Shown piece after piece: positions 20,624 to 44,225 of a stretch of 64,000 nt of DNA (the stretch's first letter is position 1; each line of letters opens with the position of its first letter). A model generated the notes under the pieces. It worked only from the letters and a program-made list of their open reading frames with translations. It ran no database searches and was not told the DNA's origin. Both the position numbers and the translations under genes were made by a program. Source of the stretch: a virus; IMG/VR virus record IMGVR_UViG_3300047476_000704, positions 1-64,000 of that record. One strand, written 5' to 3'.

Positions 20624-20782
20624 ATGCAAACATCATTTACAAAAGTATTAGTTTATTCAATTGGAACATTAGTTGTTTCAGCTGCTATATTCAGTATGAC
20701 TATGGCAGGATTGAATCTTGCTGGTCAAACTGATATTACCAAAGAAGTCATTGAAGAAATGGATGATGTTTTAGGAATTTAA
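20624..20782 (+). CDS. 52-residue plus-strand membrane peptide
   Basis: The only convincing plus-strand gene in the window. An unusually good Shine-Dalgarno, GGAGG, lies five bases before the ATG. The peptide begins MQTSFTKVLVYSIGTLVVSA, contains one hydrophobic helix (residues 8-30), and ends in an acidic tail (DITKEVIEEMDDVLGI). A possible plus-strand promoter is TTTG at 20577-20580 with TATATTTA at 20596-20603, spaced slightly short. Its stop overlaps the stop of the outer-membrane protein gene on the other strand by three bases (convergent). A small membrane-acting peptide, for example an antiholin or a superinfection factor, is possible. Function unknown. Confidence 0.6.
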   Translation: MQTSFTKVLVYSIGTLVVSAAIFSMTMAGLNLAGQTDITKEVIEEMDDVLGI

Positions 20783-22365
20783 AGCATCAATCTAGAACCT
20801 ATTAAGAAATTACTCAATATTGGTGCTCCCGCAGCAGTTGATGTGTTTATCTTATAGTTGAAACTCAATCCAAACTTACGAGTAATTTTATAATCTACCG
20901 ATGTTCCCAATAGGAATCCAACATTAGTAGAGTAAGTAACCTCACCTTTCCCAGCATTAAAACTTGCACCAGGCGTCATTACGAATACTTGTGGTGATAC
21001 TGTAATCTTTTTTGATTTCTGATATGGTTTAGTCCAAAATACAACTGCTGAACTACTCATACTATAATCACTTCCAATAAATAAATTTACCAAACCTAAA
21101 TTGTAACCATATACACCATATTTTGGATTTGGTATGATGTGTGTATAACCAGCTAATGCCATATAGTTACCCGTTAAATATGCACCTGTTAGTGAATAAG
21201 AGTTCATAGAAACCATCTTACCACCTTTCATATTCATTTTTGTAATACCACCACTCAAAGCAAATTGCTTCAATGTAGACCACACCATAGAGTTTAGAGA
21301 ATAGGTTACATTACCAGCTGCTGATGAACGAGATATACCATTAGTTAGTATAACTGCAAAGTCACCTGGTGAACCTTCTGCTACCGTTAAATCTGATGCA
21401 ATTAGTAATGGATTTATGTTTTGTGCCTTTTGTTTCTTATCTTCCTTTTTTTCCTCTTTCTTTTCTTCTTTTTTAGATTCCTCTTTCTTCTCTTCCTTTT
21501 TAGATTCCGATTTAGATTCTTCTTTCTTTTCCTCACTCTTGCTTTCCGATTTTGATTCCTCTTTAGATTCGGATTTAGACTCGGATTTAGTTTCAGACTT
21601 TGTTTCTGATTTGGTTTCGGTTTTAGTTTCCGTCTTACTTTCCGAAGATGAAGATGAACTATTGGATGATGAACTACTACTACCCCCACTTGATGAAGAT
21701 GATGAACCACTACTTGCAGGTGCCGATGAAGCAGGTGCAGATGAAGATGGGGCAGGTGCTGGAGTTGGTGCCGATGTAGTTGGAGTTGGTGGTGGAGGCG
21801 GAACTGCTGCTGATGCCGCTGAACTTGCTGCACCACTTGCAGCAGATGAAGCGGCTCCACTTGCTGCTCCACTTGCAGCAGTTGATGCAGCCGAACTCGC
21901 AGCTGAACTCGCCGCACTACTTGCAGCAGATGATGCCGCATTACTAGCGGCTGAACTTGCGGCATTACTTGCAGCTTGTGATGCTGCTGAACTAGCTGCT
22001 TGAGCTGCTGCTGCCGATGCTGCTTGTGTTGCCGCTTGAGCTGCTGCTTGCTGTACTGCTTGATTTACTGTTTGTTGAACTGTTTGTTGAACTACTACAT
22101 TTGTTTCACATCCTTTGGATGAATATGCAGTATAAACCATTTGTAACCATATTTTCATTGCACCACTTGAAACTTCATCTGGTGTGAATACTCTCATTTG
22201 GTCATAAAAGGATACAAATGCGTTTCCGTTGACATAAGTAGTAGTGGCGATTTTTACCTCACCACTACACTTATCTATAAATGTTTGTGTAAATGTTTGT
22301 CCGTTAGCTTTGGAAGCTAGACAAAATATAAATAATACACTTAATAGTATTCTTAACTTTTTCAA
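20779..22365 (-). CDS. outer-membrane barrel protein with low-complexity linker
   Basis: 528 residues in four parts. A signal peptide (residues 1-22, LLSVLFIFCLASKANG) is followed by a short N-terminal domain with two Cys. A long low-complexity region comes next: Ala/Ser repeats of the AASSAAS type (about 105-190), Pro-rich (190-205), Ser-rich (205-245) and Lys/Glu/Ser-rich (245-310). The C-terminal 210 residues (SDLTVAEGSPGDFAVILTNG onward) show alternating amphipathic strands consistent with an 8-12 strand outer-membrane beta barrel, including YGVYGYNLGLVNLFIG and NVGFLLGTSVDYKI. Probably an exported surface protein whose linker spans the periplasm or the capsule. No phage-tail signature is seen. 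Confidence 0.72.
   Translation of the reverse strand: MKKLRILLSVLFIFCLASKANGQTFTQTFIDKCSGEVKIATTTYVNGNAFVSFYDQMRVFTPDEVSSGAMKIWLQMVYTAYSSKGCETNVVVQQTVQQTVNQAVQQAAAQAATQAASAAAAQAASSAASQAASNAASSAASNAASSAASSAASSAASSAASTAASGAASGAASSAASGAASSAASAAVPPPPPTPTTSAPTPAPAPSSSAPASSAPASSGSSSSSSGGSSSSSSNSSSSSSESKTETKTETKSETKSETKSESKSESKEESKSESKSEEKKEESKSESKKEEKKEESKKEEKKEEKKEDKKQKAQNINPLLIASDLTVAEGSPGDFAVILTNGISRSSAAGNVTYSLNSMVWSTLKQFALSGGITKMNMKGGKMVSMNSYSLTGAYLTGNYMALAGYTHIIPNPKYGVYGYNLGLVNLFIGSDYSMSSSAVVFWTKPYQKSKKITVSPQVFVMTPGASFNAGKGEVTYSTNVGFLLGTSVDYKITRKFGLSFNYKINTSTAAGAPILSNFLIGSRLML
21414..22090 (-). repeat. low-complexity coding repeat (Ala/Ser then Ser/Lys/Glu)
   Basis: Degenerate tandem repeats inside the outer-membrane protein gene: GCTGCAAGT-like units encoding Ala-Ala-Ser over about 21810-22060, then TCTGAATC-like units encoding Ser-Glu/Lys over about 21450-21660. 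Length variation by slippage is expected here. Confidence 0.8.
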
Positions 22366-22400
22366 TCATTAGGGTATTTGCTACCTATATAAATATAAGA

Positions 22401-25400
22401 TTAGAAATTATATCTAACACCTAATTGAATTTGCCACTTACTATTTATTTGGTCTACTGAATATGGTTTTTGTGTTGGTTTAGTAAATGAGAATGTTTCA
22501 CCACTTACTTTTGCCAATCCAACCGATGATGTGGAGTTGAATGAATTGGATACAAAATACATTTCTCCCCACTCTTTATTCAATAGATTTGTTAGGTTGA
22601 ATATATCCGCAGTTAATTGAAAACTCTTACCCACATTTTGTACTATTTTTGCATCTATCGTTGTACTCCAAGGTGTTCTTCCTCCGTTTCTTTCAGTAAA
22701 GTTTCCTTTTCTACTACTCAAATATTCATTACTATTTACAAAATCAGTAAATGCTTGTGCTTGAGTTGCGTTTGGAATATACTTTGCCACCTCATCATCT
22801 TTGAAGATATACACTAACCCCGCTGCCTGCGGATTGTTTTGTAAAGTTCCATTAACTAATCCCCAAGTAAATGGTGTTCCACTTTGTGAATTTAACACCA
22901 AAGATACTTGTGTTGTCTTAAATGATTTTGTAATTTGAGATATGATACGATGTCTAATATCAAAGTTTGAATATGCTAATTGTGGGTCATTAGGAGTTAG
23001 TGATTGATTCAATGTCCAATTACTTTCCATAGAGTTACGAATACCATTTGTTAAATCCTTTGCTACTCCGTATGTGTATGCTCCATAAACATCTAAACCA
23101 AATGGATACTTTTTAGTTACTGATGTTGTTAGTTGGTATCTATATCCTTTGTTCGTATTTGATAATAGGTATGCGTTTGATAAGTTTGAGTTTATCTTTA
23201 CCCCACTATATATTGGCATTTGTTTTTGAGTATCAAATGAATAATAAGTTGGATTATCAGTCACAATGTTGATTTGTTGGAATTTCAAATCATTTATTAC
23301 TTGCGTATATAATCCTTCTACTGAAAATTTGTATCCACCGATTGTTTTATCTACTGCCAAATTACTTCTTAATACGGATGGCATTTTGAAACCATTATCA
23401 ACTAAATCAATTTGTGTTAGATTCTTTTGTCCATTGTTGAATGCAAATGTTTTAGCACCGTCCGTAATTGGGTCTCCCACATTCTTCAAACTTGCTCTAT
23501 TGTTCAAATCAAATGAACCAAAACCAATACCATCATTGTAGTATGCGTATCCCAACCAAGCAAATGGTATTCTACCTACGAACACACCACTACCACCTCT
23601 TACAACTAAATCATTATCCAACTTCCAATTGAATCCAAAACGAGGAGAGATGTTGATGTTGTTAAAGTAATCGTTTGTATATTGTGTTGGTGTTTGTGAA
23701 CTTAATGTAGGTTTGTTTGGTAAGTTTGTATAATCAAAACGAATGCCAGGTGATAGTTTTAAGTTTCCTAATTGGATTTCATCTTGCACATATCCACTTA
23801 ATAAATTTATATCAAATTGTGCATATGGATTATTGAATATATAATCTCTATCGTTGTTTTGGAAACCATAGAAACCTCTTACTCTATTTACTTTTCCAAC
23901 TAAATAATCATCAACTGATTTGTAAGCAATTCTACCATTCCAACTATTTACAAAACCATAATCAATTTTGTAGAACTCATTATGTGTTCCAATTAAGAAT
24001 GAATGATTACCAACTGAAAAGTTAAAGTTGTTTGTAAACTCAAATGTTTTTTGTTTTAAGTTAAAGATAGTTGCTTCTCTTTCGTTTCCAATAAAGATAG
24101 TTCCACCATTGTATGCAATCTCCGTTTGTGGGAAGCCAAAGTTCTCACTTAAAGGAGTTCTATAATCGTGGATGTTGGTGTATCCCAAAATCAAAGAGTT
24201 AGATGCCGAACCTAAATGTGAACGCAACTCCATCACAGTTGATGATTGATTTACATTCTGTCTAAAATCTTGCGAACCAAAACGGAAATTTGCTGCATCT
24301 CTTTCTAAATTGGTAGCATCTGAAATTGTAGTATTGTTTCTCAATGTCAATTGATTGTTATCATTGATATTCCAATCCAATCTATTGAAGAATTTTTTAG
24401 AATTAGAACTGATACTGTAATCTTTGTAATCACCAACATTGTAACCATATTTAGTTTGAGTGTAATCACTTATCTTCTTTGCAGTAATCTCATCTATTAA
24501 ACCACCAGAGTTTACCCCATAGAATACAGGTTCGTTACGATGTGTGATTTCTTCGTTAGTAAATAAAAATAGTTTATTTTTGATTAAAGGTAATCCAATA
24601 CGGAATCCAGTCTGCGCATCTACATAATCCGATGTTGTATTGAATCCTGCTAGCGCCCCATTTCTACCGAATCCGTATATAGAACCTTTAATATCGTTTG
24701 TACCACTACGAGTAATTGCGTTGATTGAACCCCCTACAAAGTTTCCAACCTTTACATCATATGGTGCTATATAAACTTGTATATCTTGTATTGCATCTAC
24801 TGATATTGGAGATGTACGAGTTGATGAACCAGGCATACCAGATGTACCACCCTGTCCTCCCAATGATGGAGAGAATCCAATTGCATCGTTATTGATTGTA
24901 CCATCTATTGTTACATTGTTATAACGAAAGTTTGTACCTGCAAATGAATTGTTTACCGATTGTGGAACTAACTTTGTGAAATCAGTAATTGCTCTACTCA
25001 ATGTAGGAACTGATTTAAGTTTTTCTTCTCCCAAATAAATACCAGCACCAGTCTTTGTACCACCTTTGGTAGCGGTTACTACTACTTCATTTAATTGTGT
25101 TGTTTCTTCTTCTAATTGAATATCTAAATCATTAGAACCTAATGTTAAATAAACACCATCTTTTTCTAATCCTTTATATCCCACCGATGTTACCTTTATT
25201 TTATAAGGTCCACCAGTATTAGCATTAAATATGTGAAAAGTACCATTTACATCTGCGGATGCTCCGTATTTTGTACCAGTAGATGTAAGTGTGATTTGAA
25301 TTGTGGAACCAGGTAGTGTTTCTCCCTTCTTATCTTTGATTGTTCCGTTGATTGATGAATTTGTAACTTGTGAGATTGCTGATGTAGAAATCAACAATGC

Positions 25401-25424
25401 TAAAAATAAAAATAGTTTCCTCAT
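22401..25424 (-). CDS. TonB-dependent outer-membrane receptor (Oar/SusC-like)
   Basis: 1007 residues, full length for the family. Signal peptide (1-18, LFLFLALLISTSAIS), carboxypeptidase-regulatory-like domain (about 22-105, INGTIKDKKGETLPGSTI), TonB-box-like NEVVVTATKGG at about 115, plug domain (to about 240) with FAGTNFRYNNVTIDGTINN and GGSINAITRSGTNDIKGS, then a beta barrel ending in the terminal Phe (IQLGVRYNF) recognised by the BAM machinery. No frameshifts. This protein class imports large substrates through the outer membrane of Bacteroidota using host TonB. Its presence inside a lytic-type replication region is striking. It may replace a host receptor, for superinfection exclusion or nutrient uptake. 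The role is inference. Confidence 0.92.
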   Translation of the reverse strand: MRKLFLFLALLISTSAISQVTNSSINGTIKDKKGETLPGSTIQITLTSTGTKYGASADVNGTFHIFNANTGGPYKIKVTSVGYKGLEKDGVYLTLGSNDLDIQLEEETTQLNEVVVTATKGGTKTGAGIYLGEEKLKSVPTLSRAITDFTKLVPQSVNNSFAGTNFRYNNVTIDGTINNDAIGFSPSLGGQGGTSGMPGSSTRTSPISVDAIQDIQVYIAPYDVKVGNFVGGSINAITRSGTNDIKGSIYGFGRNGALAGFNTTSDYVDAQTGFRIGLPLIKNKLFLFTNEEITHRNEPVFYGVNSGGLIDEITAKKISDYTQTKYGYNVGDYKDYSISSNSKKFFNRLDWNINDNNQLTLRNNTTISDATNLERDAANFRFGSQDFRQNVNQSSTVMELRSHLGSASNSLILGYTNIHDYRTPLSENFGFPQTEIAYNGGTIFIGNEREATIFNLKQKTFEFTNNFNFSVGNHSFLIGTHNEFYKIDYGFVNSWNGRIAYKSVDDYLVGKVNRVRGFYGFQNNDRDYIFNNPYAQFDINLLSGYVQDEIQLGNLKLSPGIRFDYTNLPNKPTLSSQTPTQYTNDYFNNINISPRFGFNWKLDNDLVVRGGSGVFVGRIPFAWLGYAYYNDGIGFGSFDLNNRASLKNVGDPITDGAKTFAFNNGQKNLTQIDLVDNGFKMPSVLRSNLAVDKTIGGYKFSVEGLYTQVINDLKFQQINIVTDNPTYYSFDTQKQMPIYSGVKINSNLSNAYLLSNTNKGYRYQLTTSVTKKYPFGLDVYGAYTYGVAKDLTNGIRNSMESNWTLNQSLTPNDPQLAYSNFDIRHRIISQITKSFKTTQVSLVLNSQSGTPFTWGLVNGTLQNNPQAAGLVYIFKDDEVAKYIPNATQAQAFTDFVNSNEYLSSRKGNFTERNGGRTPWSTTIDAKIVQNVGKSFQLTADIFNLTNLLNKEWGEMYFVSNSFNSTSSVGLAKVSGETFSFTKPTQKPYSVDQINSKWQIQLGVRYNF

Positions 25425-25501
25425 TATTGTGTTTTTTGTTCAACAATAAGTAGGAAACTATCTGATTAAAATACCATTTTGTATGTTACCAAATTGTTAA
25501 A

Positions 25502-26221
25502 TTACTTCGGAAACTTACCTTTCTTTATCATACGAAGAAGAATACGAGCACAAGCAATATCCAATGCTTTCTTTGTAGATGTACCAATAGTAGATTGGTT
25601 GAACTTAACATCCGATAAGTTATCATCATTCAATAGTGATAGTTCACGAGTTGTAGTTGCTTCACCTAAACCAGATGCTCCAAATATCTCACCAGTTTCT
25701 GCATCTGTGAATCTAACTTGCAAACCTAAACGAGTAACCATTTTGTTTTTAACACCATCTTTCATATTGATTGTTTCATCCTCACTAACAGAGAAATCAT
25801 ATACTTCAATAGATACAAAATAATGTGCTAATCTAATCTTACCTCTACCATCTAACTTATCTTGGGAAATGCCCGCTTGAGAAGCTTGATATTGTTTAAC
25901 CATTCTATTTTTGATTTCGGTTTTGTCCTCTGTAAAAGTAAAACGATTGAGATTTTCAAGGTATTCCATAGATATGTTCGCCACACCAAGACCCACCTTC
26001 TTTTCTTTAAGTTCCGGATATTGTTCCAATATTTCATCACTAATTCCACATTTTAAGATTTGAATTGGAATCGTTGGACCATCATAGTCCATCAACTCAC
26101 TTATGTCCACTTTTGTTTCAAAACTCGCTTTGTAGTTTTCCGTAGTAGTCTTCCCAACCACCTGTCCCTTCACAACGAAGGTCATTAATCCCATTGCTAA
26201 AATTAGAAATATATTTTTCAT
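25502..26221 (-). CDS. CsgG-like secretion channel protein
   Basis: 239 residues. Signal peptide (1-19, LILAMGLMTFVVKG) without a lipobox Cys. The body resembles CsgG family proteins: VGLGVANISMEYLENLNRF, a paired VRFTDAETGEIFGASGLGEA, and a C-terminal helix TKKALDIACARILLRMIKKG. CsgG forms an outer-membrane pore that exports curli subunits. CsgG-like genes are known in T4-like marine phages. Here it lies immediately upstream (in transcription order) of the TonB-dependent receptor and near secreted cohesin/dockerin proteins. The lipobox typical of CsgG is missing, so membrane insertion would differ. Confidence 0.7.
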   Translation of the reverse strand: MKNIFLILAMGLMTFVVKGQVVGKTTTENYKASFETKVDISELMDYDGPTIPIQILKCGISDEILEQYPELKEKKVGLGVANISMEYLENLNRFTFTEDKTEIKNRMVKQYQASQAGISQDKLDGRGKIRLAHYFVSIEVYDFSVSEDETINMKDGVKNKMVTRLGLQVRFTDAETGEIFGASGLGEATTTRELSLLNDDNLSDVKFNQSTIGTSTKKALDIACARILLRMIKKGKFPK

Positions 26222-26268
26222 TACCTTATAGTTTTTTGTTTTCTATAAGTATATAAAAAAAGGATAAG

Positions 26269-26688
26269 TTAAATAAGTGATTTGAATAAATTTATGGCTT
26301 CTTCAATATCATCTACAATTTTATCACCAACTATAAACTTATTTGTATGTTGATTATAAACAATAGATGGAACATTTCCAATCACTAATCTATTATCCAA
26401 ATTCTCAATAGGTGTAACAACTCTCAAATTATCTATATTGTTGTTTTTACGATTTCTATCAATATGGTCAACTTGTAAGTTACGAGGTATAATTCCTTGC
26501 CATGCTTCTATCACCAATCTATGAACCAATTCCCCCTTTGCTATTTTATCCTTTCTAACATTTAATATTTCATATCCTTTGGGATGCATTCTTTTTTTAA
26601 GTATTCTACCTGTTTTATTATTACGAATATTTCCGTTATTTGAAATATCATAATTAGTATATACCGGATGTGTTCTATATTGTTCCAT
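26269..26688 (-). CDS. HNH homing endonuclease
   Basis: 139 residues. A NUMOD4-like start, EQYRTHPVYTNYDISNNGNI, is followed by an HNH core: VHRLVIEAW, LQVDHIDRNRKNNNIDNLRV. It resembles the HNH_3 family of free-standing homing endonucleases in T4-like phages. The start was set at MEQYRTHP because the preceding 12 codons are hydrophobic and lie in an AT-rich promoter-like leader. It sits as an insertion between the holin-like gene and the CsgG-like gene, downstream of a terminator. Confidence 0.88.
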   Translation of the reverse strand: MEQYRTHPVYTNYDISNNGNIRNNKTGRILKKRMHPKGYEILNVRKDKIAKGELVHRLVIEAWQGIIPRNLQVDHIDRNRKNNNIDNLRVVTPIENLDNRLVIGNVPSIVYNQHTNKFIVGDKIVDDIEEAINLFKSLI

Positions 26689-26712
26689 GTATATAAATAT
26701 AGGTATATAAAA

Positions 26713-26741
26713 AAAGGGAAACATTTTTTTTGTTTCCCTTT
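26713..26741 (-). terminator. Rho-independent terminator
   Basis: Stem AAAGGGAAACA/TGTTTCCCTTT with an A-rich loop and a following T run on the minus strand, ten bases after the stop of the 99-residue membrane protein. Confidence 0.85.
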
Positions 26742-26750
26742 TTCAATAGA

Positions 26751-27050
26751 TTATCCTAATTCTTCTTCTTCTTTAATTGGTTCTGGTTGAATACTATCCA
26801 AATGTGCCAATTTATCATTTTCAGCTTTCTTATTAACAAACTTGTCAACCGATGCTATACCAAATGAACCTAATGTTATGGTTAGGAAACCATTAAAGAT
26901 ATACTCATTGATAAGTAATTCCTTACCCATATATCCAGTTATTAAATCAACTGCGATTGCTATTACCATTACACCGAATGATGCAAATCCAACAACTGAT
27001 TTTTCGTTGATGTTATTATCATCATCAAACAATTCTTTAAAAAAACCCAT
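26751..27050 (-). CDS. small two-helix membrane protein, holin-like
   Basis: 99 residues. Two hydrophobic helices (about 18-38, VVGFASFGVMVIAIAVDLI, and 47-68, NGFLTITLGSFGIASV) separated by a short polar loop, with a charged C-terminal tail. The size and topology fit class II holins. A second holin-like gene directly follows upstream, and pairs of such proteins can form holin/antiholin sets. No lysin is recognised next to it, so the lysis role is not proven. Confidence 0.55.
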   Translation of the reverse strand: MGFFKELFDDDNNINEKSVVGFASFGVMVIAIAVDLITGYMGKELLINEYIFNGFLTITLGSFGIASVDKFVNKKAENDKLAHLDSIQPEPIKEEEELG

Positions 27051-27071
27051 AGTTACTCCCCTTAATTTTAA

Positions 27072-27419
27072 TTAATCTATATTATGATGTGCTTCATCAT
27101 TTTCAGGGGATGCTGCTGCTCCGCCTGTGTTTGATAAGGATACACCGTCTTCCTCGTCCATTTTCTGAACTAACATTTTATCTTTGTCTGTATCTGAAAA
27201 CCAGTAATCTATAATCTTACCATAAGAACCAATAAATGCTCCTAACAATAACATTAACAATTCTTTCCATTCGCCAGCAATAGTAGTTCCCAATGATATA
27301 GCAGTAAATATACCAGCTATTATTAACATGAAACCACCCAATACCATAGCAGTGATGAGCCATCTACGCATCATCATTGCATTTAATAATTTCTTAAACC
27401 CGTCCGGCTGCTGTTCCAT
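27072..27419 (-). CDS. small membrane protein, holin-like
   Basis: 115 residues. Hydrophobic helices at about 18-45 and 52-72 (WKELLMLLLGAFIGSYGKII), then an acidic tail with DKMLVQKMDEEDGVSL. This pattern of two helices followed by DYWF and an acidic, Gly/Ala-rich end recurs in small membrane proteins of T4-like marine phages. Adjacent membrane and exported proteins suggest it is part of the envelope cassette, or a holin. Confidence 0.55.
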   Translation of the reverse strand: MEQQPDGFKKLLNAMMMRRWLITAMVLGGFMLIIAGIFTAISLGTTIAGEWKELLMLLLGAFIGSYGKIIDYWFSDTDKDKMLVQKMDEEDGVSLSNTGGAAASPENDEAHHNID

Positions 27420-27422
27420 ATT

Positions 27423-27743
27423 TTACCAAGCTGCTGGTTTCTCTTTGAACTCGTCTGCTTCTTTTTTAGGTTTAGGAGCAGGTGCTGGCGCTGGTTGTGC
27501 ATTTCCACCGGCTGCTTTTTCTTTGATGATAACTGTTTTACCACCACTTGCAGCTTGTTGTTGTGCTTGATTTTGTGTAATGTTAATTACAGGTGCCGCT
27601 GCTGGTTGTACAGCTGGTTGCTCACCACCTCCAAACATTTGTGAACCTAACCAAGCTCCGCCTGCGGTTACAATTGTTCCTACTGTGCCTATGATTGTTT
27701 TAACCAATCCTGACATTGTTCCATCGTTTGATTCTTCTGACAT
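27423..27743 (-). CDS. small membrane protein with Ala/Pro/Gln-rich tail
   Basis: 106 residues. One hydrophobic segment (about 12-36, GLVKTIIGTVGTIVTAGGAW) is followed by a Gln/Ala-rich stretch (residues 45-70) and a Pro/Lys-rich end (PAPAPAPKPKKEADEF). No recognised domain. The layout suggests an anchor with an extended, flexible periplasmic or extracellular tail. Three bases from the next gene, same transcript as the exported proteins. Confidence 0.5.
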   Translation of the reverse strand: MSEESNDGTMSGLVKTIIGTVGTIVTAGGAWLGSQMFGGGEQPAVQPAAAPVINITQNQAQQQAASGGKTVIIKEKAAGGNAQPAPAPAPKPKKEADEFKEKPAAW

Positions 27744-27767
27744 AATCTTTGTTTTTGTAAGTTGTTA

Positions 27768-28136
27768 TTATAATTTATTAAAATCCGTAATTCCTATTTG
27801 TACTCCTTTTTCATCAAATAGTGCAATTCTATATGCAGATGCTGGTAATGCTGATGTATATACTTTAAGTACATTATCTCCCGCCGTTACATCAACTTCT
27901 TCTTTTGATACCACTCTGTTTGCTATGTTAAATATCTTTACAGTAAATTTACCATTCTTTTCCGTCTTTACATTCATTGCAACTTCGTTTGTTACAAATG
28001 CTGTCTGTAATTTAATACCAACTTTATCTGCCATTTTAAGTTCCTGTGCAACTTCCATTCTTGGTACAAATGATTCTTCGTTTTGGCAAGATACTAATAA
28101 TGTAGTTATTGCTGCTAATATAAGTATTTTTTTCAT
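27768..28136 (-). CDS. lipoprotein with beta-sandwich tail
   Basis: 122 residues. Lipobox LVSC at residue 17 after the signal ILILAAITTLLVS. The last 60 residues, KFTVKIFNIANRVVSKEEVD onward, ending in YRIALFDEKGVQIG, resemble the type IX secretion C-terminal sorting domain fold (VKIYNI...G..V pattern) found in Bacteroidota. The upstream neighbour is a clear paralogue. A protein carrying both a lipobox and a sorting-like fold is odd, so the fold may simply be a beta-sandwich adaptor. Confidence 0.6.
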   Translation of the reverse strand: MKKILILAAITTLLVSCQNEESFVPRMEVAQELKMADKVGIKLQTAFVTNEVAMNVKTEKNGKFTVKIFNIANRVVSKEEVDVTAGDNVLKVYTSALPASAYRIALFDEKGVQIGITDFNKL

Positions 28137-28137
28137 T

Positions 28138-28482
28138 TTATTTTATTATTATTGTTGTTTTTCCTATTTGATTTTTAGCAACATCTTCCAATAACACATA
28201 TAAATATCTACTTTGTAACGATTTCGTATAAATCTTTTTTACATTTTCTCCAGCTTGCCCAACAAATCTTTCTCTACTGATTACTTGATTTGTTTGATTA
28301 TCTATTAAAGTTAGTGTATGGATACCATTTTTTGGTAAATTAAAATGTATAGATTGTCCGTTTGTTACCATACTTTCCTTTACACTAAATATATTAGTTT
28401 TTGCCATAACTTCCAACATTTCTATTTCAGGTCCACTACATCCAATCAAAAATAAAAACGATATGTATAATAATTTTTTCAT
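28138..28482 (-). CDS. lipoprotein, paralogue of downstream gene
   Basis: 114 residues. Lipobox LIGC at residue 15 after LLYISFLFLIG. The rest parallels the downstream lipoprotein: HTLTLIDNQTNQVISRERFV, then NVKKIYTKSLQSRYLYVLLE. The two form a lipoprotein pair directly downstream of the lectin/dockerin gene, with one-base spacing. They could anchor or assist the large exported proteins at the outer membrane, which is inference. Confidence 0.6.
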   Translation of the reverse strand: MKKLLYISFLFLIGCSGPEIEMLEVMAKTNIFSVKESMVTNGQSIHFNLPKNGIHTLTLIDNQTNQVISRERFVGQAGENVKKIYTKSLQSRYLYVLLEDVAKNQIGKTTIIIK

Positions 28483-30422
28483 TAGTTTACATTTACTTTT
28501 AATTGTGTACCATTTTTATTTACCGCATCAGTTACCGATATGGATGTTAAACCCAATGTACCTTCTATTCCAATTAGTGGTAAAAATGTTATTCTATATT
28601 CAGTTGTTTTATCTAATGTAGTTGAACCATTGGTTATTAGAGAACCTACATTTATATAAGTTCCCATATCGTTCCCAAAGTTAGTTGCTTTCGCATTAGA
28701 TTCTACCTTTTCAAATTGTAAAGAAGTTTTATCGTAATTTAATTGAAATTGAGTTCCTACTACGGATTGTTGTAATGGGTCTAATGTAATTGTTACAATA
28801 ACCTTACCACCAACATTTTCACTAATTATTGATGCGTTTATTTCATTTGTAGTTGATATTGTTCTATTCATCATACCAACACTATTACCAACAACCGAAC
28901 TTTGTGGCGCAGAATGTGATAAATTTACATCCCCTTTCCAAAATACACTTATATCGTAGTTGTAAGCATATTGTCCAGCAATAGGTGTTATTGGTGCGAA
29001 TGTATCTCTAGTTAAATTACTATTGCCACTCCAATTTGCTTTGGTTATACTATTATAAGTCGAACTACTCATAAGTTTCATCCAACAACTTAATGTATTA
29101 CAATTATCAGTAAGGTTTCTTGCGCCAGTTAGGTGTTGTAATAATCTATATGTATCTTCTTCATTAAATACACCATCCCCATTTACATCTGCATTCATAT
29201 ATTGAATACCTGATGTGAACTCATTTCCACCATTACCTAATAATCCTTTGTTAGATAGTTCTCTAAAAGCAAGATAAACATCACTCACACTTACTATTTG
29301 ATTTGTTAGTGTAGTTAGATTTGTAGCTGGGTATGGTTCAAATATAAATCCCATATTTGTTTTGGTAGTATCAAAATCTGCACTCATATCTACCTTACCC
29401 AGCCCACTCAATTGTTTTGGAGTAGTTGATATGTTTGTCCATATATTTGGATTTGTAAAATAAGCAAGTTTACCAGAAAATGTTGTTTCATCAATAGTAG
29501 TACCAAAGTTAAAATTAAAGTTTGCACTCTTTACTGCACCATTAGTATGTGATGTACTATTAGTATAAAACTCTGTAAATGTTTGGTTATCAGGATTAGT
29601 CCAAGTTCCATATTCAATTACATACGGATTTGCCCAATTGTTTGATAAATCATTCCATTGATTACCATTCCATTTTGTTACCGCATAATCCTCACTATGA
29701 TTACTACCATTTGGTTCACCAGCCGCCCAGTTATTATATACACCGGCTATGTTTCCGGCAGTTTGACCATTTGATGTTTTCATCACAGTTCCTTTTTCAG
29801 GTCCAGCATCAATTACCCATCTTCCATCCACAACTTCATCAGTTGCTGCAAACCATATATTAGTTTGTGGTACATTCGCTTGTATGAATGCATCTTCGGA
29901 AGCGGATGTTATAGTTACTAAATAACCCGTCTGCCCTTTAAATGTTGTTGTTAATGAAGCTGCTCTAGCTGCGGTATAAGTTGCACCAGTTGTTACAGGT
30001 TTGTAGAAGTGTCCATTAACGCCATTGTAATAAAATCCCGTTGGATTTATTGTTGCTGCTACTGATAATTTTACAGTACCTTTGATTGAACCCGTATTTA
30101 TTTTTAATGATGCCAATGCAGTATTGATATTAGCCATTGTACCAGTTACTACCAAACGAGTTTTATTACCTGCCAATGTAAATCCACTAGCCGCAGTTAA
30201 ACCCGTTGATGTGTTTAGATAAAATGTAGTACCGGTTGGAAACTCTACTAAACTGATTGATGTGAGTAAAATATCGGTTGCCGTAAATCCACTCAATGAG
30301 AATCCACTAGCATCCTGTCCGTTTGTATTTACGGAAAATGATTTAGCAACCGGAGCAGTTACACTTTGTCCGGTTGCTAAAAATGATAATAATAAAAATA
30401 ATATAGTAACTAATTTGTTCAT
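28482..30422 (-). CDS. secreted C-type lectin / dockerin / cohesin-like protein
   Basis: 646 residues. Signal peptide (1-20, LVTILFLLLSFLATGQS). A cadherin-like or immunoglobulin-like region runs to about 125, then a C-type lectin-like domain (about 135-285) with YKPVTTGATYTAARAASLTT and WAAGEPNGSNHSEDYAV, the EPN-type carbohydrate motif. A dockerin-like calcium repeat, ADVNGDGVFNEEDTYRLLQH, follows at about 410. The C-terminal 110 residues resemble a cohesin-type beta sandwich (VTITLDPLQQSVVGTQFQLN). The start was placed at MNKLVTILF, giving a proper signal peptide. The domain set points to cell-surface carbohydrate binding and modular assembly. Confidence 0.75.
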   Translation of the reverse strand: MNKLVTILFLLLSFLATGQSVTAPVAKSFSVNTNGQDASGFSLSGFTATDILLTSISLVEFPTGTTFYLNTSTGLTAASGFTLAGNKTRLVVTGTMANINTALASLKINTGSIKGTVKLSVAATINPTGFYYNGVNGHFYKPVTTGATYTAARAASLTTTFKGQTGYLVTITSASEDAFIQANVPQTNIWFAATDEVVDGRWVIDAGPEKGTVMKTSNGQTAGNIAGVYNNWAAGEPNGSNHSEDYAVTKWNGNQWNDLSNNWANPYVIEYGTWTNPDNQTFTEFYTNSTSHTNGAVKSANFNFNFGTTIDETTFSGKLAYFTNPNIWTNISTTPKQLSGLGKVDMSADFDTTKTNMGFIFEPYPATNLTTLTNQIVSVSDVYLAFRELSNKGLLGNGGNEFTSGIQYMNADVNGDGVFNEEDTYRLLQHLTGARNLTDNCNTLSCWMKLMSSSTYNSITKANWSGNSNLTRDTFAPITPIAGQYAYNYDISVFWKGDVNLSHSAPQSSVVGNSVGMMNRTISTTNEINASIISENVGGKVIVTITLDPLQQSVVGTQFQLNYDKTSLQFEKVESNAKATNFGNDMGTYINVGSLITNGSTTLDKTTEYRITFLPLIGIEGTLGLTSISVTDAVNKNGTQLKVNVN

Positions 30423-30426
30423 ATTG

Positions 30427-32049
30427 TTATTCAACAATTAAATCTATTTTGTTACCTTTGCCATCTACCGCATCTGATAATTCGGTGTAGAATAAACCTG
30501 CTGTATTTGTTAAAGGTACTTTTGGTGTAAATACTAATTTGTATGGTGTACCAGTTTTAATTCTAGCAGTTCTAATTTGGTCAATTGAACCAAATGTTAA
30601 TCTACCATCTTTGTTTGTTGAGAAGTTAGTTACAGTTGAACCCGCATCAAATACCACATTATCCAATGTTAATTTTGATTCATCATATTTCATAATAACT
30701 TCCAATCCAGCCAAATCTGCTTTTGATAATGATGTAGTTAAAACAACTTTACCATTTTCAATTTTAGATGATAAACTCAATGTTGCTTGCTCCAATACCT
30801 TATCAGCGTAATATGCAGGTGCAATAGTTCTATTCATTGTACCAGTTGATACACTTTGAGCGGCAACTGCAGATGGTGCGGATGAATGTGAGAAGTCTAA
30901 ATCACCACCCCAAGCATAAGCGAAATCTTCCGTTTGAGTTGCTGCTGTAATTTCAACTGCGTAATTGTTTATAGTACCTGCATTAAATCCTGCTTTCTTA
31001 CCAGATACAAATCTAACTGATGTAGAAGTTGATGATGGTATCATTGCATTTGCCGATACATCTATACCCATAATGTGTGCAAATATATAGTATGCATCCG
31101 TTTCATCAAAAGTATTACCAGTTTTAGAAATGTTACCAACTATCCTTTCAATAGCAGGATATTGGAAAAAATCATTTGTACCACTTAAACCAACATTTGC
31201 GATTGCAGAAAATGCTTTATATGCATCGGTTACAGTTACAATGTTATTCATCCAAGTCTTTTGGTATGCCGGTGTTATTATTACTCCAAACTTATCCCCA
31301 ATCTTAAATTGTGAGAAAGTTGCTTCACCCTGTGCGTTCAATGGTGCAACTGCTAATGGTTGTGGATTAGCTGCCCAATCAATTATACCAGCAGTAGTAA
31401 GTGGCATAATTTGTACATTTTGGTCTACAATGTTTGTATGCGATGTTGGGAATACCACTCTAACTCTAAATGCCGATGTACCACCTTTGATTGGCTCAGG
31501 TACCGATAATTGAAGAACTTGTGAACCAATGTTTGGAATAGTAGCACCAGCCGCATCAAATGCATTTGCCATATCTAACTTATGTACATTCTGATAGTTT
31601 ACTGCATCTTTAACTATATACTTTTGAGTTGCAAGTTGTCCATCAATTGCAGCATCAGTTCTTTGTACTGTCAATTGCCCAACATTCCAATCGGAATTTG
31701 GTGCATATCCCCAAGGTGTTGAAGCATATTGTTGGTCTAATGCACCAACTCCAATATTTGGATTTTGATTAAACTTATAATTATCCCAATTTGTAAAATA
31801 AGTTTGAGATGCATTACCTTGTGAGAATACTGTACTATTTGGTACATATTGTAAATGTTTGTTAGAAAATTGGTATCTCAACCAAAAATAACGAGGTGTT
31901 GTAGTACCCTTAACAATATTATATTTTATTGTTAAAGTATCACCAACTTTGAATGGTGGTGTTTGAACAATTGATTGGTCAATTATTAGTTGTCCAAAAG
32001 ATGTGAATGATGTAAAAAATAACACCAAGCCGAATAATAAGTTTTTCAT
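30427..32049 (-). CDS. secreted paralogue with degenerate dockerin and cohesin-like end
   Basis: 540 residues. Signal peptide (1-19, LLFGLVLFFTSFTSFG). The C-terminal 300 residues parallel the lectin protein: a dockerin-like stretch with VTVTDAYKAFSAI and TFDETDAYYIFAHIMG lacking the calcium Asp set, the shared block GGDLDFSHSSAPS and TGTMNRTI, then a cohesin-like beta sandwich (LEVIMKYDESKLTLDNVVF). The N-terminal 250 residues are beta-rich and unassigned. The shared GD-x-x-SHS and MNRTI blocks show the two large proteins arose by duplication. Four bases separate it from its paralogue. Confidence 0.72.
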   Translation of the reverse strand: MKNLLFGLVLFFTSFTSFGQLIIDQSIVQTPPFKVGDTLTIKYNIVKGTTTPRYFWLRYQFSNKHLQYVPNSTVFSQGNASQTYFTNWDNYKFNQNPNIGVGALDQQYASTPWGYAPNSDWNVGQLTVQRTDAAIDGQLATQKYIVKDAVNYQNVHKLDMANAFDAAGATIPNIGSQVLQLSVPEPIKGGTSAFRVRVVFPTSHTNIVDQNVQIMPLTTAGIIDWAANPQPLAVAPLNAQGEATFSQFKIGDKFGVIITPAYQKTWMNNIVTVTDAYKAFSAIANVGLSGTNDFFQYPAIERIVGNISKTGNTFDETDAYYIFAHIMGIDVSANAMIPSSTSTSVRFVSGKKAGFNAGTINNYAVEITAATQTEDFAYAWGGDLDFSHSSAPSAVAAQSVSTGTMNRTIAPAYYADKVLEQATLSLSSKIENGKVVLTTSLSKADLAGLEVIMKYDESKLTLDNVVFDAGSTVTNFSTNKDGRLTFGSIDQIRTARIKTGTPYKLVFTPKVPLTNTAGLFYTELSDAVDGKGNKIDLIVE

Positions 32050-32531
32050 TATAATAGTTTTTTGATTAAGGTTTCACAAGTCTTTTTAATCGCATTTCTT
32101 GCAGATTGTTGGTTGAATTGTCCACCTTCATTAACTAATAATGTGCTAGTAGATACTTCGGATGAACTTTCTTCTGCCAAAAACTGCTTTATTTTCTTGC
32201 CGTTTTTGTAAAGCGTACCCTTTATTCGTATAACTACTTCAGTCTCATCTGAATGAAAAACTGATATGTTTGTTTTGGTTGTTAGAATATCAAAGAAAAT
32301 GATTTCCGTTTTGAGAACGATTGTATTTTCATCAATGGTTTCCACCAATGAATGATTCTCCTGTACTAATTCTTGTAAGATGTTTTTAACACCAAAAGCC
32401 AGATTTTTGTTGTCTGTCAATGGTCCTATTTGGATGTTATTGACAACTTTTTCAACAAAAACTGGCTCTGTAATTTGTGCCATACCCATAATAGGTAATA
32501 GCACCAATAAAATTGATGTTAATAGTCTCAT
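32049..32531 (-). CDS. exported CsgG/YajG-like accessory protein
   Basis: 160 residues. Signal peptide (1-18, LLTSILLVLLPIMGMA). The body has paired beta strands (ETEVVIRIKGTLYKNGKKIK) and a terminal amphipathic helix QQSARNAIKKTCETLIKKLL, an arrangement like CsgG-family and YajG-like periplasmic proteins. Start chosen at the ATG of MRLLTSI, which has GGGAGAA eight bases upstream; an in-frame GTG 12 bases earlier was rejected. First gene of the exported-protein transcript and overlapping the next gene by one base. It may assist the CsgG-like protein at 25502. Confidence 0.6.
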   Translation of the reverse strand: MRLLTSILLVLLPIMGMAQITEPVFVEKVVNNIQIGPLTDNKNLAFGVKNILQELVQENHSLVETIDENTIVLKTEIIFFDILTTKTNISVFHSDETEVVIRIKGTLYKNGKKIKQFLAEESSSEVSTSTLLVNEGGQFNQQSARNAIKKTCETLIKKLL

Positions 32532-32574
32532 AATTTCTCCCACAAATAAATATGAGAGAAATCAGAAAACGATA

Positions 32575-33039: not shown

Positions 33040-33259
33040 TTTCTTTTTGCTTTCTTGCTTCTTTTGGTAACAACTCTTCCAATACTTCCCCACACTCTAC
33101 ACATAGGTATAGTTCAATTGGGATTACTGCATCTTGTGGTGTACCAGTTAGTAATCTACTGATTTTCTTAAATTTAAATCCTGGTGCAAAGGTATCACCT
33201 CCACACTTTTCACAAACCATATCCTTTGCTTGTGATAAATCTATATTAGGTGCTTGCAT
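33005..33259 (-). CDS. zinc-ribbon protein
   Basis: 84 residues. Two CxxC knuckles, VCEKCGGDTF at about 15 and LCVECGEVLE at about 53, form a four-Cys zinc ribbon. The acidic C-terminus follows. T4-like phages often carry such a protein between the clamp-loader genes, where gp33-like transcription co-activators are found in T4. The family cannot be fixed from this length. It overlaps gp62 by 35 bases and abuts groES. Confidence 0.65.
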   Translation of the reverse strand: MQAPNIDLSQAKDMVCEKCGGDTFAPGFKFKKISRLLTGTPQDAVIPIELYLCVECGEVLEELLPKEARKQKENGEGKNPIGLI

Positions 33260-33564
33260 TATCTAATTACCATTAAAAGTTCACCTTCACGTAATAACAC
33301 ATATTCGGTATTGTTAAACTTTACCTTTTGAGTATCATAACTATTATGTGGTAACAATACCTTATCACCAACCTCAACTTGCATTGGAATACGAACACCA
33401 TTGTTTGTATAGATACCAGCACCAACTGATACTACCTTACCAACTTTGTTATCTCCAAATTGTGCGGTTTCTGGTAGGATGATTCCACCAACTGTCTTTT
33501 CTACTTTTTCAATTTCTACTAAAACCTTATCACCAATAGGTTTTGCTAATTCTACATTTTCCAT
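33259..33564 (-). CDS. groES: GroES co-chaperonin
   Basis: 101 residues. The fold is evident from AKPIGDKVLVEIEKVEKTVG, the mobile loop GGIILPE that contacts GroEL, VGKVVSVGAG, and VEVGDKVLLPHNSY. It should form the heptameric lid for the phage GroEL encoded at 2751. It lies inside the replication operon, seven bases downstream of the gp44-like gene and overlapping the zinc-ribbon gene by one base, rather than next to groEL. Confidence 0.95.
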   Translation of the reverse strand: MENVELAKPIGDKVLVEIEKVEKTVGGIILPETAQFGDNKVGKVVSVGAGIYTNNGVRIPMQVEVGDKVLLPHNSYDTQKVKFNNTEYVLLREGELLMVIR

Positions 33565-41623: not shown

Positions 41624-41652
41624 GCCTATAAATATAAAGTTATGATAATTGT

Positions 41653-41741
41653 AGAGAGTGAGGGGCTCGAACCCTCGCGCCGGTTTTACCCAACCTAACA
41701 GTTTAGCAAACTGCCCCCTTCACCAACTTGGGTAACTCTCT
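41653..41741 (-). tRNA. tRNA-Ser(GCT)
   Basis: Acceptor AGAGAGT/ACTCTCT, anticodon loop TTGCTAA (stem GCAGT/ACTGT), T-loop TTCGAGC. 89 nt, with the long variable arm expected of serine. Confidence 0.88.
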
Positions 41742-41742
41742 G

Positions 41743-41818
41743 TGGTGACTCCATCAGGACTCGAACCTGAAACCTACGCATTAGAAGTGCGTTGCTCTAT
41801 CCATTGAGCTATGGAGCC
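41743..41818 (-). tRNA. tRNA-Arg(TCT)
   Basis: Acceptor GGCTCCA/TGGAGTC, anticodon loop CTTCTAA (stem ACGCA/TGCGT), T-loop TTCGAGT. A 3' CCA is encoded directly after discriminator A. Confidence 0.92.
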
Positions 41819-41823
41819 ATATG

Positions 41824-41910
41824 AGGAGGGTGTGAGATTCGAACTCACGGTCCTGTTACAGACTCCGGTTTTCAAGACCGGTGCAATAGACCAACTCTGC
41901 CAACCCTCCT
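41824..41910 (-). tRNA. tRNA-Ser(TGA)
   Basis: Acceptor AGGAGGG/CCCTCCT, anticodon loop CTTGAAA (stem CCGGT/ACCGG), T-loop TTCGAAT. 87 nt with a long variable arm. Confidence 0.92.
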
Positions 41911-41919
41911 TTTATTATA

Positions 41920-42474
41920 TTACTCTTCGTTTAATTTCAAATCTTCAATAACTTCTTTATGGATTCGTCTTTCCTCTTCCATTAGTTCTTCTAACATTGC
42001 ATAAACTTCATCTCGATAATCATCATCTCCATAGAATTTATTTGCATCAATATCTTCATCTAAATATTCTTCCGAACCATATTCCGATGAATAATATGCT
42101 ATACCCATTGGGTCACAACTTTCGTCCTGAAATGTATTCTCAATTACAACATCCTCTTTGATACATATAAGTTTAGAACATAATTGTTTAAGTAATGGAT
42201 TTACTGCATCCCATGCTGATGTTAGATTGATTGAAATTTCAGTATCCCATTCTCCCTCAATTTGTCCATATACCCATTTAGCACCAACATTATCATTTAC
42301 CCAACCTCTATCATAATCCTCATCTGTCCAATTCATATCATATACACCATTAATTATATCAATTGTATGTGTATCTCCAATTTCATCCTGCACCGAAAAG
42401 ATTCTTTTCAACTCATCAATAACTGCTTGGTTACAATTTTTAACTCTAACCATATTATCTACGTGATTTGCCAT
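41920..42474 (-). CDS. DUF1281-like protein, unknown
   Basis: 184 residues, acidic. MANHVDNMVRVKNCNQAVID at the start resembles DUF1281/YubB-type phage proteins, where a ferredoxin-like domain follows. The middle contains TDEDYDRGWVNDNVGAKWVY, the C-terminus is a highly acidic helix. It overlaps the upstream coiled-coil gene by one base, so the two form a small operon inside the tRNA array. Confidence 0.6.
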   Translation of the reverse strand: MANHVDNMVRVKNCNQAVIDELKRIFSVQDEIGDTHTIDIINGVYDMNWTDEDYDRGWVNDNVGAKWVYGQIEGEWDTEISINLTSAWDAVNPLLKQLCSKLICIKEDVVIENTFQDESCDPMGIAYYSSEYGSEEYLDEDIDANKFYGDDDYRDEVYAMLEELMEEERRIHKEVIEDLKLNEE

Positions 42475-42827
42475 TAGATTTCTTCGGTTTTAGTTTGTGT
42501 TGAATCAGATTTTAATTTAATTTCGGGATATTTTTGGCGAATTTCAACCGAATCTTCAACTGCCCACTTTTGTTTAAGTTTAGCTCTTTTTTCAATATTC
42601 TTCAATTGTTCTTTCTTCTTTTGAATATCTTTTGTTAGTTTTTCAATACGAACATATTTACTTGCATAATCTTCATCGGTGGCATCAATCCACTCAATTT
42701 TTCTTTTAGATTCTTTGATTTCTGCTTTCAAACTTTCAACCAATGGTGCCTCATCACTAAACTTCGGGTCAATAGTTCCACCCAATGTGTTTAGTAAAAG
42801 CATGATAGACATTCCCAATTCTTTCAT
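42474..42827 (-). CDS. coiled-coil protein, unknown
   Basis: 117 residues. A short hydrophobic start (about residues 4-15) is followed by a long charged coiled coil (about 30-95) with many Lys and Glu. Not recognised. It has a -7 promoter box at 42843-42850. Confidence 0.5.
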   Translation of the reverse strand: MKELGMSIMLLLNTLGGTIDPKFSDEAPLVESLKAEIKESKRKIEWIDATDEDYASKYVRIEKLTKDIQKKKEQLKNIEKRAKLKQKWAVEDSVEIRQKYPEIKLKSDSTQTKTEEI

Positions 42828-42842
42828 ATGAATTATTTTTTA

Positions 42843-42850
42843 CAAATATA
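42843..42850 (-). promoter_or_regulatory. -7 promoter box
   Basis: TATATTTG on the minus strand 16 bases before the coiled-coil gene. No clean TTTG at the -33 position. Confidence 0.5.
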
Positions 42851-42891
42851 AGATATTTTTTTATTATATCCTAATTTTATTTAACTTTTGT

Positions 42892-42961
42892 TACCCGAGC
42901 TGGATTCGAACCAACCCTAACTGCACCAAAAACAGTTGTGCTACCGCTACACCATCGAGCA
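42892..42961 (-). tRNA. tRNA-Gln(TTG)
   Basis: Acceptor TGCTCGA/TCGGGTA (G-U pairs), anticodon loop TTTTGGT (stem ACTGT/GCAGT), T-loop TTCGAAT. Confidence 0.85.
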
Positions 42962-42967
42962 ATTCGC

Positions 42968-43040
42968 AGTTCGTACGGGATTCGAACCCGTGGTCTCCAC
43001 AGTGACAGTGTGGGATGTTGGGCCTCTACACCAACGAACT
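42968..43040 (-). tRNA. tRNA-Asp(GTC)
   Basis: Acceptor AGTTCGT/ACGAACT, anticodon loop CTGTCAC (stem CCACA/TGTGG), T-loop TTCGAAT. Confidence 0.93.
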
Positions 43041-43045
43041 AAATG

Positions 43046-43300
43046 TGATTACTGATTTGACTCATTTCGAACTTTCGGGGCTCGTATCATTCAATTTCAG
43101 TAATCAATAATTAAAACAAACTTTTTGTACCCGATGTACATCATAACCAATTCGCATTGGTGGTTACATTTTCGCATTTGGGTTAATTACTCCCGACTTA
43201 TAGTAACTCTCTCCTGACCTGTATGACTATTCCGGCTTCAACAGTACCCTTTTGGATTTTATATACCGAGGGGTTACACCTCAGTCTTCGTTTGTTTTGA
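43046..43300 (-). other. 260-base non-tRNA stretch with hairpins
   Basis: No ORF with coding character. A 10-bp stem TGATTACTGA/TCAGTAATCA encloses 41 bases at 43046-43106. TAACCA/TGGTTA and ACTGAGG/CCTCGGT hairpins follow. The latter ends in CTCGGTA, also present at the start of the elements at 44226 and 48190. Possibly a structured RNA, or a decayed tRNA region. Confidence 0.4.
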
Positions 43301-43372
43301 GCTTCCAGTCGGAATCGAACCAACAACCTCTCGATTACAAATCGAAGGCTCTACCAGTTGAGCTATGGAAGC
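43301..43372 (-). tRNA. tRNA-Thr(TGT)
   Basis: Acceptor GCTTCCA/TGGAAGC, anticodon loop TTTGTAA (stem TTCGA/TCGAG), T-loop TTCGATT. Its 5' end overlaps the stop of the HNH gene. Confidence 0.93.
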
Positions 43373-43782
43373 GTATTATTTCTTTTTTGCAAAGCTATTT
43401 TAGAACCTTTTATACCACCTTCTAACATTCTAGCATAACCTTCTTCTGATATATTTTTTAAACCAAAAGTTGGAGTTTGTGAATGACAATTAGGACACAT
43501 TATTTTTAGGTTTTCATGTCTATTATCTCTTCTATTTCCATTTATATGGTCAATCTGAAATGTTATTGGTTTTCCATTATATTCGGTAATACCACATTCT
43601 TCACATCTTTCACCTCTTATCTTTTTAAGATGAATACCCATACCTTTACTCCAATTAGTATCTAATTGAAACTTTGTTTTAATTCTATCGGCTGCTGAAC
43701 AATCCCACCCACAATACAATCCTTTTGATTGAGATGGCATATATGTTATTTCTTTTCCACAATTTTTACAATTTGATTTCAT
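43363..43782 (-). CDS. HNH endonuclease in the tRNA array
   Basis: 139 residues. Zinc-binding Cys pairs at the N-terminus (NCKNCGKEI, LYCGWDC) and in the HNH core (RCEECGI, then FQIDHINGNRRDNRHENLKI and MCPNCHSQ). It resembles free-standing homing endonucleases of phages, which often insert at tRNA genes. The stop codon lies ten bases inside the tRNA-Thr gene, so transcript processing must separate them. A hairpin of eight base pairs (TAGGTTAC/GTAACCTA) precedes it. Confidence 0.88.
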   Translation of the reverse strand: MKSNCKNCGKEITYMPSQSKGLYCGWDCSAADRIKTKFQLDTNWSKGMGIHLKKIRGERCEECGITEYNGKPITFQIDHINGNRRDNRHENLKIMCPNCHSQTPTFGLKNISEEGYARMLEGGIKGSKIALQKRNNTLP

Positions 43783-43804
43783 AGTATTTTCTTTACTATA
43801 AATA

Positions 43805-43836
43805 TTAGGTTACTAAAAAAAAGTAAAGTAACCTAA
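43805..43836 (-). other. hairpin between tRNA-Glu and HNH gene
   Basis: TAGGTTAC/GTAACCTA, 8 bp, with a T-rich loop. It could end the tRNA transcript or act in the HNH leader. No T run follows on the minus strand, so it is not a classical terminator. Confidence 0.3.
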
Positions 43837-43844
43837 CCAAATGT

Positions 43845-43917
43845 ACTCCGGACGGGACTCGAACCCGTAAGCTTCCACGTGAAAGGCGGATGTCCTAACC
43901 AATTAGACGACCGGAGC
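43845..43917 (-). tRNA. tRNA-Glu(TTC)
   Basis: Acceptor GCTCCGG/CCGGAGT, anticodon loop CTTTCAC (stem TCCGC/GTGGA), T-loop TTCGAGT. A promoter lies six bases upstream. Confidence 0.92.
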
Positions 43918-43922
43918 ATTTA

Positions 43923-43954
43923 CAAATATAACTATTTTATTTTTTAATTCCAAA
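43923..43954 (-). promoter_or_regulatory. Bacteroidota-type promoter for tRNA-Glu
   Basis: TTTG (43951-43954), 20-base spacer, TATATTTG (43923-43930) on the minus strand. Confidence 0.8.
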
Positions 43955-43971
43955 CTTTTATGGAATTATTT

Positions 43972-44054
43972 TGGTGGGGGCAGAAAGACTCGAACTTCCG
44001 AACCCGAAGGAGAGCATTTACAGTGCCCCGCAATTGCCGCTATGCGATACCCCC
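43972..44054 (-). tRNA. tRNA-Tyr(GTA)
   Basis: Acceptor GGGGGTA/TGCCCCC, anticodon loop CTGTAAA (stem GGGCA/TGCTC), T-loop TTCGAGT, long variable arm. 3' CCA encoded. Confidence 0.93.
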
Positions 44055-44153
44055 AATTTAGTCTTTTCCTTACCTCTTAATAACCACATTGCCAGTCCGA
44101 TGTTACTATCGGATGCTTACCAAAATCATACTTTGGAGCGATTACTACATTGA

Positions 44154-44224
44154 GCAGGTAGTCAGATTCGAACTGACGTCTCCGGTTTGGAAGACCAGAG
44201 CACTAACCACTGTGCTATACCTGC
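44154..44224 (-). tRNA. tRNA-Gly(TCC)
   Basis: Acceptor GCAGGTA/TACCTGC, anticodon loop CTTCCAA (stem CTGGT/ACCGG), T-loop TTCGAAT. Canonical shape. Confidence 0.93.
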
Positions 44225-44225
44225 A

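Follow-up and report, generated by a model that had tools for sequence, protein, structure and literature searches.

The window analysed here covers the opening 64 kb of a virus record that is 194,856 bases long, the remainder of which has nearly all of its genes on the minus strand and includes tail-sheath-, baseplate-, portal- and terminase-like genes together with a PG-binding endolysin at ~126.7 kb; on the strength of these look-alikes we assigned the record to a T4-like phage. Between positions 20779 and 32543, the minus strand of the window carries twelve genes in the order CsgG2, sec540, sec651, lip114, lip122, tm106, tm115, tm99, a homing endonuclease, CsgG1, a TonB-type receptor and OMP-linker. 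A preliminary description of this DNA had reported a contiguous block of at least eight exported proteins, and all eight were found to be minus-strand open reading frames with an N-terminal signal peptide or lipobox (8 of the 12 block genes); the run of exported proteins is interrupted, with the homing endonuclease and three small membrane proteins (26751-27743) lying inside it. These three membrane proteins belong to a conserved neighbourhood, and the HNH homing endonuclease (26269..26724, minus strand; PADLOC HEase 1.6e-20) is a mobile insert outside the module, giving no match in 82 related loci. As this endonuclease was the only gene to match convincingly in PADLOC, a reading of the block as a defence system was rejected. 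The GC content of the block resembles that of the rest of the window, and composition is even throughout. Elsewhere in the window, a GroES-like gene (33259-33564, minus strand) adjoins the clamp loader, a full-length GOLLD RNA (47287-47695, minus strand; RF02032, 293.6 bits, E 6e-83) lies where a dense tRNA array (41651-47275) ends, and a tmRNA (49281-49670, minus strand; RF00023, 83.8 bits) has an unusually long predicted tag, ADVELSTMTFEDAMAWMNSFDYAVAA.

The most conserved gene of the module is CsgG1 (25502..26221, minus strand), which encodes an exported protein of 239 aa. Its close relatives share 77-98% identity, and relatives were found at 495 viral stretches, with one more in immuto, a cultured Flavobacterium phage (54% identity). 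A collection of genomes from 84,980 bacterial and archaeal species yielded a single relative, and when 297 genomes belonging to the phylum of this relative were surveyed, only the same genome came back, with the reservation that the scan works from short conserved stretches and so may miss distant relatives. Neither the 239-aa protein nor the 164-aa product of CsgG2 matched the CsgG family directly in Pfam, PHROGs, NCBIfam or PDB profiles. CsgG1 belongs to the CsgG family by a bridge homologue, by profile comparison and by predicted fold: a 36%-identical chromosomal homologue matches PF03783 at 1.1e-6, comparison of the CsgG1 profile with that of the family gave E 4e-5, and the structural model (built from a deeper alignment, pLDDT 74.8, in place of a poor first model from a shallow alignment, pLDDT 55) matched CsgG 4uv2 in Foldseek at 5.6e-6 with a probability of 1.00 and a TM-score of only about 0.4. 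The structure matches included PelC and LptE folds as well, and the top match in a viral structure library was an annotated CsgG from an uncultured phage.

The preliminary description had seen in this block a complete surface assembly with CsgG as its secretion channel. That view was not sustained, and a pore is not supported, because the signal peptide of CsgG1 in the window and in close relatives ends in Q without a lipid-anchor cysteine (absent from most CsgG1 copies), the one long hairpin of the model is charged, with acidic and basic residues, and is predicted not to face lipid, and the second membrane hairpin of CsgG is replaced in the model by a single strand. In addition, no Pfam match to CsgA/B, CsgE or CsgF was found in the cassette. 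CsgG2 (32049..32543, minus strand; start probably the ATG at 32531), also exported and claimed earlier as a second CsgG-like protein, is CsgG-like only by pattern: it has no family match and was not filed as a CsgG family member, since the profile comparison of CsgG1 with CsgG2 was weak (15% probability). CsgG2 is related (E 1e-5) to the second gene of a CsgG pair on an Ignavibacteriales chromosome, where a CsgG1 homologue with a lipobox-like cysteine is followed by the CsgG2-related gene, and thus the pairing exists outside phages too. In the chromosomal stretch concerned (L091:10001-17437), the CsgG-family lipoprotein, the CsgG2-like gene and other genes of exported or membrane type form a single run, which may represent a cellular equivalent of the pair in phages.

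Neighbourhoods were collected around 99 distinct CsgG1 proteins, some at incomplete loci, so that all counts are lower bounds. Proteins of the sec540/sec651 type were present near CsgG1 in at least 91 of the 99, OMP-linker in at least 86 (directly after CsgG1 in 60 and with intervening material in 26), tm106 in at least 83, CsgG2 in at least 81, tm115 in at least 56 and tm99 in at least 50. The recurring core is two secreted proteins, two CsgG-like proteins, a linker-borne barrel and a small membrane protein. Gene order, which the preliminary description had proposed looking for in other Bacteroidota phages, is kept in many of them and is recognisable in immuto, where the run reads lectin, unknown protein, cohesin, tm106 homologue, CsgG1 and a 474-aa protein and lies far away from the structural genes. 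The idea that phages carry a set of genes for the envelope and cell surface is thus borne out beyond this record; assignment of the set to a virion structural module was rejected on gene position, both here and in immuto. The refuting conditions named in the preliminary description (absence from other phages, misassembly or virion genes) were thus checked, and they did not overturn it.

OMP-linker (20779..22365, minus strand) consists of a signal peptide, a small conserved N-domain with invariant C33, W73 and C86, a low-complexity linker of about 220 aa and a C-terminal barrel-like domain; the barrel-ending Phe ascribed to it is in fact a Leu, and comparison of its profile with solved structures gave low-complexity matches only, nothing useful. 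The small membrane proteins comprise tm106 (27423..27743, minus strand), with one transmembrane segment and a Pro/Gln-rich tail, whose family lies directly upstream of tm115 or CsgG1, and tm115 (27072..27419, minus strand) and tm99 (26751..27050, minus strand), each with two apparent transmembrane segments. The tm115 family was delimited by clustering and has no family match, holin families included; searches of the small membrane proteins as a group gave no match to a holin or spanin family.

The two large secreted proteins had been credited with lectin, cohesin-like and dockerin-like modules. In sec651 (28482..30437, minus strand; start probably 30422), Lectin_C (1.8e-6, 29.1 bits) and Cohesin (4.1e-6, 27.5 bits against a cutoff of 24.1) both exceed their Pfam cutoffs, whereas Dockerin (1.1e-3, 19.5 bits against a cutoff of 22.9) falls under its own; the dockerin-like segment has one canonical calcium loop, DVNGDGVFNEED at residue 417. 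The second protein, sec540 (30427..32049, minus strand), carries dockerin-like and cohesin-like blocks and aligns to the dockerin-cohesin half of sec651 (27% over 289 columns, E 5e-21), as expected from the shared block described earlier. The T9SS sorting domain (TIGR04183) is absent from both sec540 and sec651 of the window. Among 42 sampled secreted proteins of relatives, this domain was present in 23 (best E 1.6e-12), cohesin in 21 and lectin in 14, the lectin usually being borne by one protein and the cohesin, together with the sorting domain, by the other; immuto also has the sorting domain. As one adhesive protein in most relatives bears this domain, the recognisable exit route is the T9SS of the host.

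Adjoining the secreted proteins are two lipoproteins, lip114 (28138..28482, minus strand; lipobox IGC) and lip122 (27768..28136, minus strand), both of which have the lipobox previously ascribed to them and which are paralogues of one another (hhalign E 1.8e-17). By profile comparison, lip122 has a domain resembling the T9SS sorting domain. When the sorting domain of immuto served as the seed of a profile, short lipoproteins adjoining secreted proteins were recovered, and a profile built from secreted proteins alone reached one lipoprotein family (3e-15) and, at 7e-5, members of the window-phage family, so that support for the kinship is free of circularity; the match of the window lipoprotein itself to the sorting domain is weak (Pfam 0.019, hhalign E 1e-4). 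Across 88 labelled loci, the sorting domain was on a secreted protein in 66, a lipoprotein with the similar domain was present instead in 22 (the window phage among them), and none had both; in a stricter locus set the corresponding numbers were 56, 16 and 1. Since the two anchoring states need about three changes on the CsgG1 tree, anchoring mode is a lineage trait, not 88 independent observations, and its exclusivity rests on few events. The published surface-export signal (LES) is C-X-K-(D/E)2-X after the lipid cysteine (PMC5080379). Mature lipoprotein N-termini read C-Y-K-D-D or C-S-K-E-D in several relatives and C-Q-N-E-E in lip122 of the window, the latter being only a near match to this signal.

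The remaining large gene (22401..25424, minus strand) encodes an Oar-type TonB-dependent receptor, an earlier assignment now confirmed by PF25183 (111 bits, E 7.5e-32), an N-terminal CarboxypepD_reg domain (PF13620, 49 bits, 6e-13) and a terminal Phe. Its sequence also contains a TonB-box-like segment, LNEVVVTA; Pfam Plug gave no match on it, and does match the 827-aa receptor of the related locus L009. The window receptor was found at two viral loci, with a 94% copy in the same place at L002, from a different metagenome, and a search of 50,697 phages returned one short (6-kb) unannotated record. Among bacterial proteins, the nearest relative found matches it along its entire length at 55% identity, suggesting that the gene was acquired from a host. 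In close relatives, the slot between CsgG1 and OMP-linker holds a class 3 lipase, the window-type receptor, a second receptor type with a lipoprotein, glycosyltransferase-2-like proteins or calcineurin-like phosphoesterases, and in another clade its usual occupant is a tm115 homologue, placed just after CsgG1; the contents are mostly outer-membrane or surface related. Because they differ among relatives, we regard the receptor as cargo. The TonB importer had been counted as part of the assembly, and the comparison instead places it outside the core as swappable material in one slot. In two of the relatives (L009:15168-16364 and L014:15110-16312), a lipoprotein of ~400 aa with no Pfam match follows the 827-aa receptor in the slot, and in a third (L003:13386-15005) a GroEL-like gene directly follows that locus's own TonB-type receptor.

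Upstream regions of the phage are enriched for the sequence TATATTTATA, which precedes the tail sheath gene and many other structural genes; the classical T4 late motif, TATAAATA, is absent. A perfect copy stands before the OMP-linker gene (22388..22397, minus strand; p 0.004, a score that is partly circular because this site helped build the scoring matrix) and a copy with one mismatch stands before CsgG1 (p 0.008). In relatives, the motif with at most one mismatch precedes CsgG1, CsgG2 and the barrel gene in about 20-23% of cases versus 4%, an enrichment that is modest, and their late motifs may differ from TATATTTATA. The two sites in the window suggest, from sequence, that the module would be expressed late. 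Over the whole record, about 32 genes are preceded, at a distance of a few tens of bases, by this late-promoter-like decamer (for example at 80596, 82941 and 162987, minus strand), and a Bacteroidota-type early motif, TTGAC-N-TAnnTTTG, precedes some other genes.

Taken together, we favour, at a probability of about 0.5, a late phage-specific module by which infected Bacteroidota cells would come to display a lectin, cohesin and dockerin assembly at their surface. The data show its gene content, conservation and domains, the exclusivity of the two anchoring modes and the late-type promoter sites; its surface location, assembly, the co-operation of its parts and its benefit are what we infer. 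The phage would make this assembly late in infection, with sec540 and sec651 as the displayed proteins, which could dock to each other via their cohesin-like and dockerin-like blocks. Anchoring would be by the T9SS sorting domain on one secreted protein in most relatives and, in the window-phage lineage, by the lipoproteins with their similar domain and surface-export-like motif. CsgG1, CsgG2, the linker-borne barrel and the small inner-membrane proteins may form an envelope-spanning support that helps to export or hold these proteins, and the slot between CsgG1 and the barrel would take interchangeable cargo, here a TonB-dependent receptor. The probable benefit is that what the infected cell binds or admits is altered late in infection, either through masking or replacement of receptors, which would keep progeny or rivals from adsorbing, or through cells being stuck together; any of these would be worthwhile to a phage at this point. 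A more elaborate version, which we put forward tentatively, is a phage-encoded machine spanning the envelope, which late in infection would coat the cell with cohesin, dockerin and lectin proteins that dock to one another; for this most lineages would borrow type IX secretion and attachment from the host, the window lineage having moved a sorting-type domain to its own surface lipoproteins and being able to plug in different outer-membrane receptors as cargo. Against display stand the missing sorting domain on the window's own secreted proteins, the weak link of the window lipoprotein to that domain, the few tree changes behind the exclusivity and the endolysin often found near the module, which fits a role in lysis as well.

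The most serious competitor is this lysis role, since 38 of the 99 loci have a GH19/PG-binding endolysin 3-6 genes downstream of CsgG1; in L003 an endolysin also sits just upstream of CsgG2. Here the small proteins would be holin-like, the barrel-linker and CsgG pair would breach or bridge the outer membrane in the manner of spanins and the secreted proteins would act on the envelope from outside. The late-type promoter sites fit this view, and a part in lysis has been put forward for CsgG in phage Melnitz (PMC9004378). We nevertheless think lysis or egress rather improbable, as the endolysin of the window phage is about 100 kb away from the module, the small proteins matched no holin or spanin family, and no part in lysis is known for TonB receptors or for domains of the lectin, cohesin or T9SS sorting kind.

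Less probable again is a diverged curli-like system, in which the adhesive proteins would leave through a CsgG-type channel and polymerise as the subunits of a fibre. The family and fold of CsgG1 fit such a system, adhesive substrates share the gene run with the CsgG-like genes, and sec540 and sec651 of the window lineage, being without a sorting domain, need some exit; yet the features of CsgG1 that speak against a pore, the lack of CsgE, CsgF and CsgA/B matches and the use of the T9SS sorting domain by most relatives despite their having CsgG1 make it unlikely. We doubt still more strongly that the genes are unrelated passengers of a hypervariable region gathering host envelope genes, with the receptor serving nutrient uptake in infection: the slot contents do vary widely and the receptor is a bacterial-type gene, but strongly diverged phages retain the order of the core, and bacterial genomes are almost devoid of CsgG1. 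Finally, an assembly chimera, which the rarity of TonB receptors in phages might suggest, has a negligible chance and host contamination is ruled out as far as sequence can do so, the block being real and phage-owned, because the 94% receptor copy in another metagenome is flanked by the same module, a second receptor type fills the same slot in related phages (18 viral loci) and composition across the window is even.

The proposed display may be set beside known systems. Receptors of the TonB-dependent class, through which other phages gain entry, are here seen to be encoded by Bacteroidota phages, in a slot that adjoins the module. Phage T5 encodes Llp, an outer-membrane lipoprotein that blocks a TonB-dependent receptor, and this is a functional precedent for late receptor masking; unlike T5, the window phage also brings its own receptor. 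Cellulosome scaffolds combine cohesin-dockerin modules, with a surface-anchored and a carbohydrate-binding partner, and the same partnership of cohesin and dockerin-like modules is predicted here, although this module is phage-encoded, is without enzymes and has dockerin matches under the curated cutoff. A csgF/csgG ("curli") operon has been reported in pelagimyophages and methylophage Melnitz (PMC7029224, PMC9004378). As there, a CsgG-family gene sits on a T4-like phage beside small unknown neighbours, with CsgA/CsgB missing; the present module differs in having no CsgF, a CsgG1 without lipobox, two CsgG-like proteins, lectin/cohesin proteins, a linker-borne outer-membrane barrel, T9SS or lipoprotein anchors and Bacteroidota hosts. 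Cryophage (76 kb) encodes T9SS type A cargo of enzyme and PA14 kinds, described as a unique occurrence (PMC7468147); it shares with the phages studied here the coding of T9SS type A sorting domains by a Bacteroidota phage, whereas the domain is here on a cohesin protein within a conserved module of many T4-like phages. Phage CsgG genes and one phage with T9SS cargo, reported as puzzles, are now tied into one conserved module and, because relatives occur in a cultivable phage-host pair, what a phage gains from rebuilding the surface of its host becomes testable.
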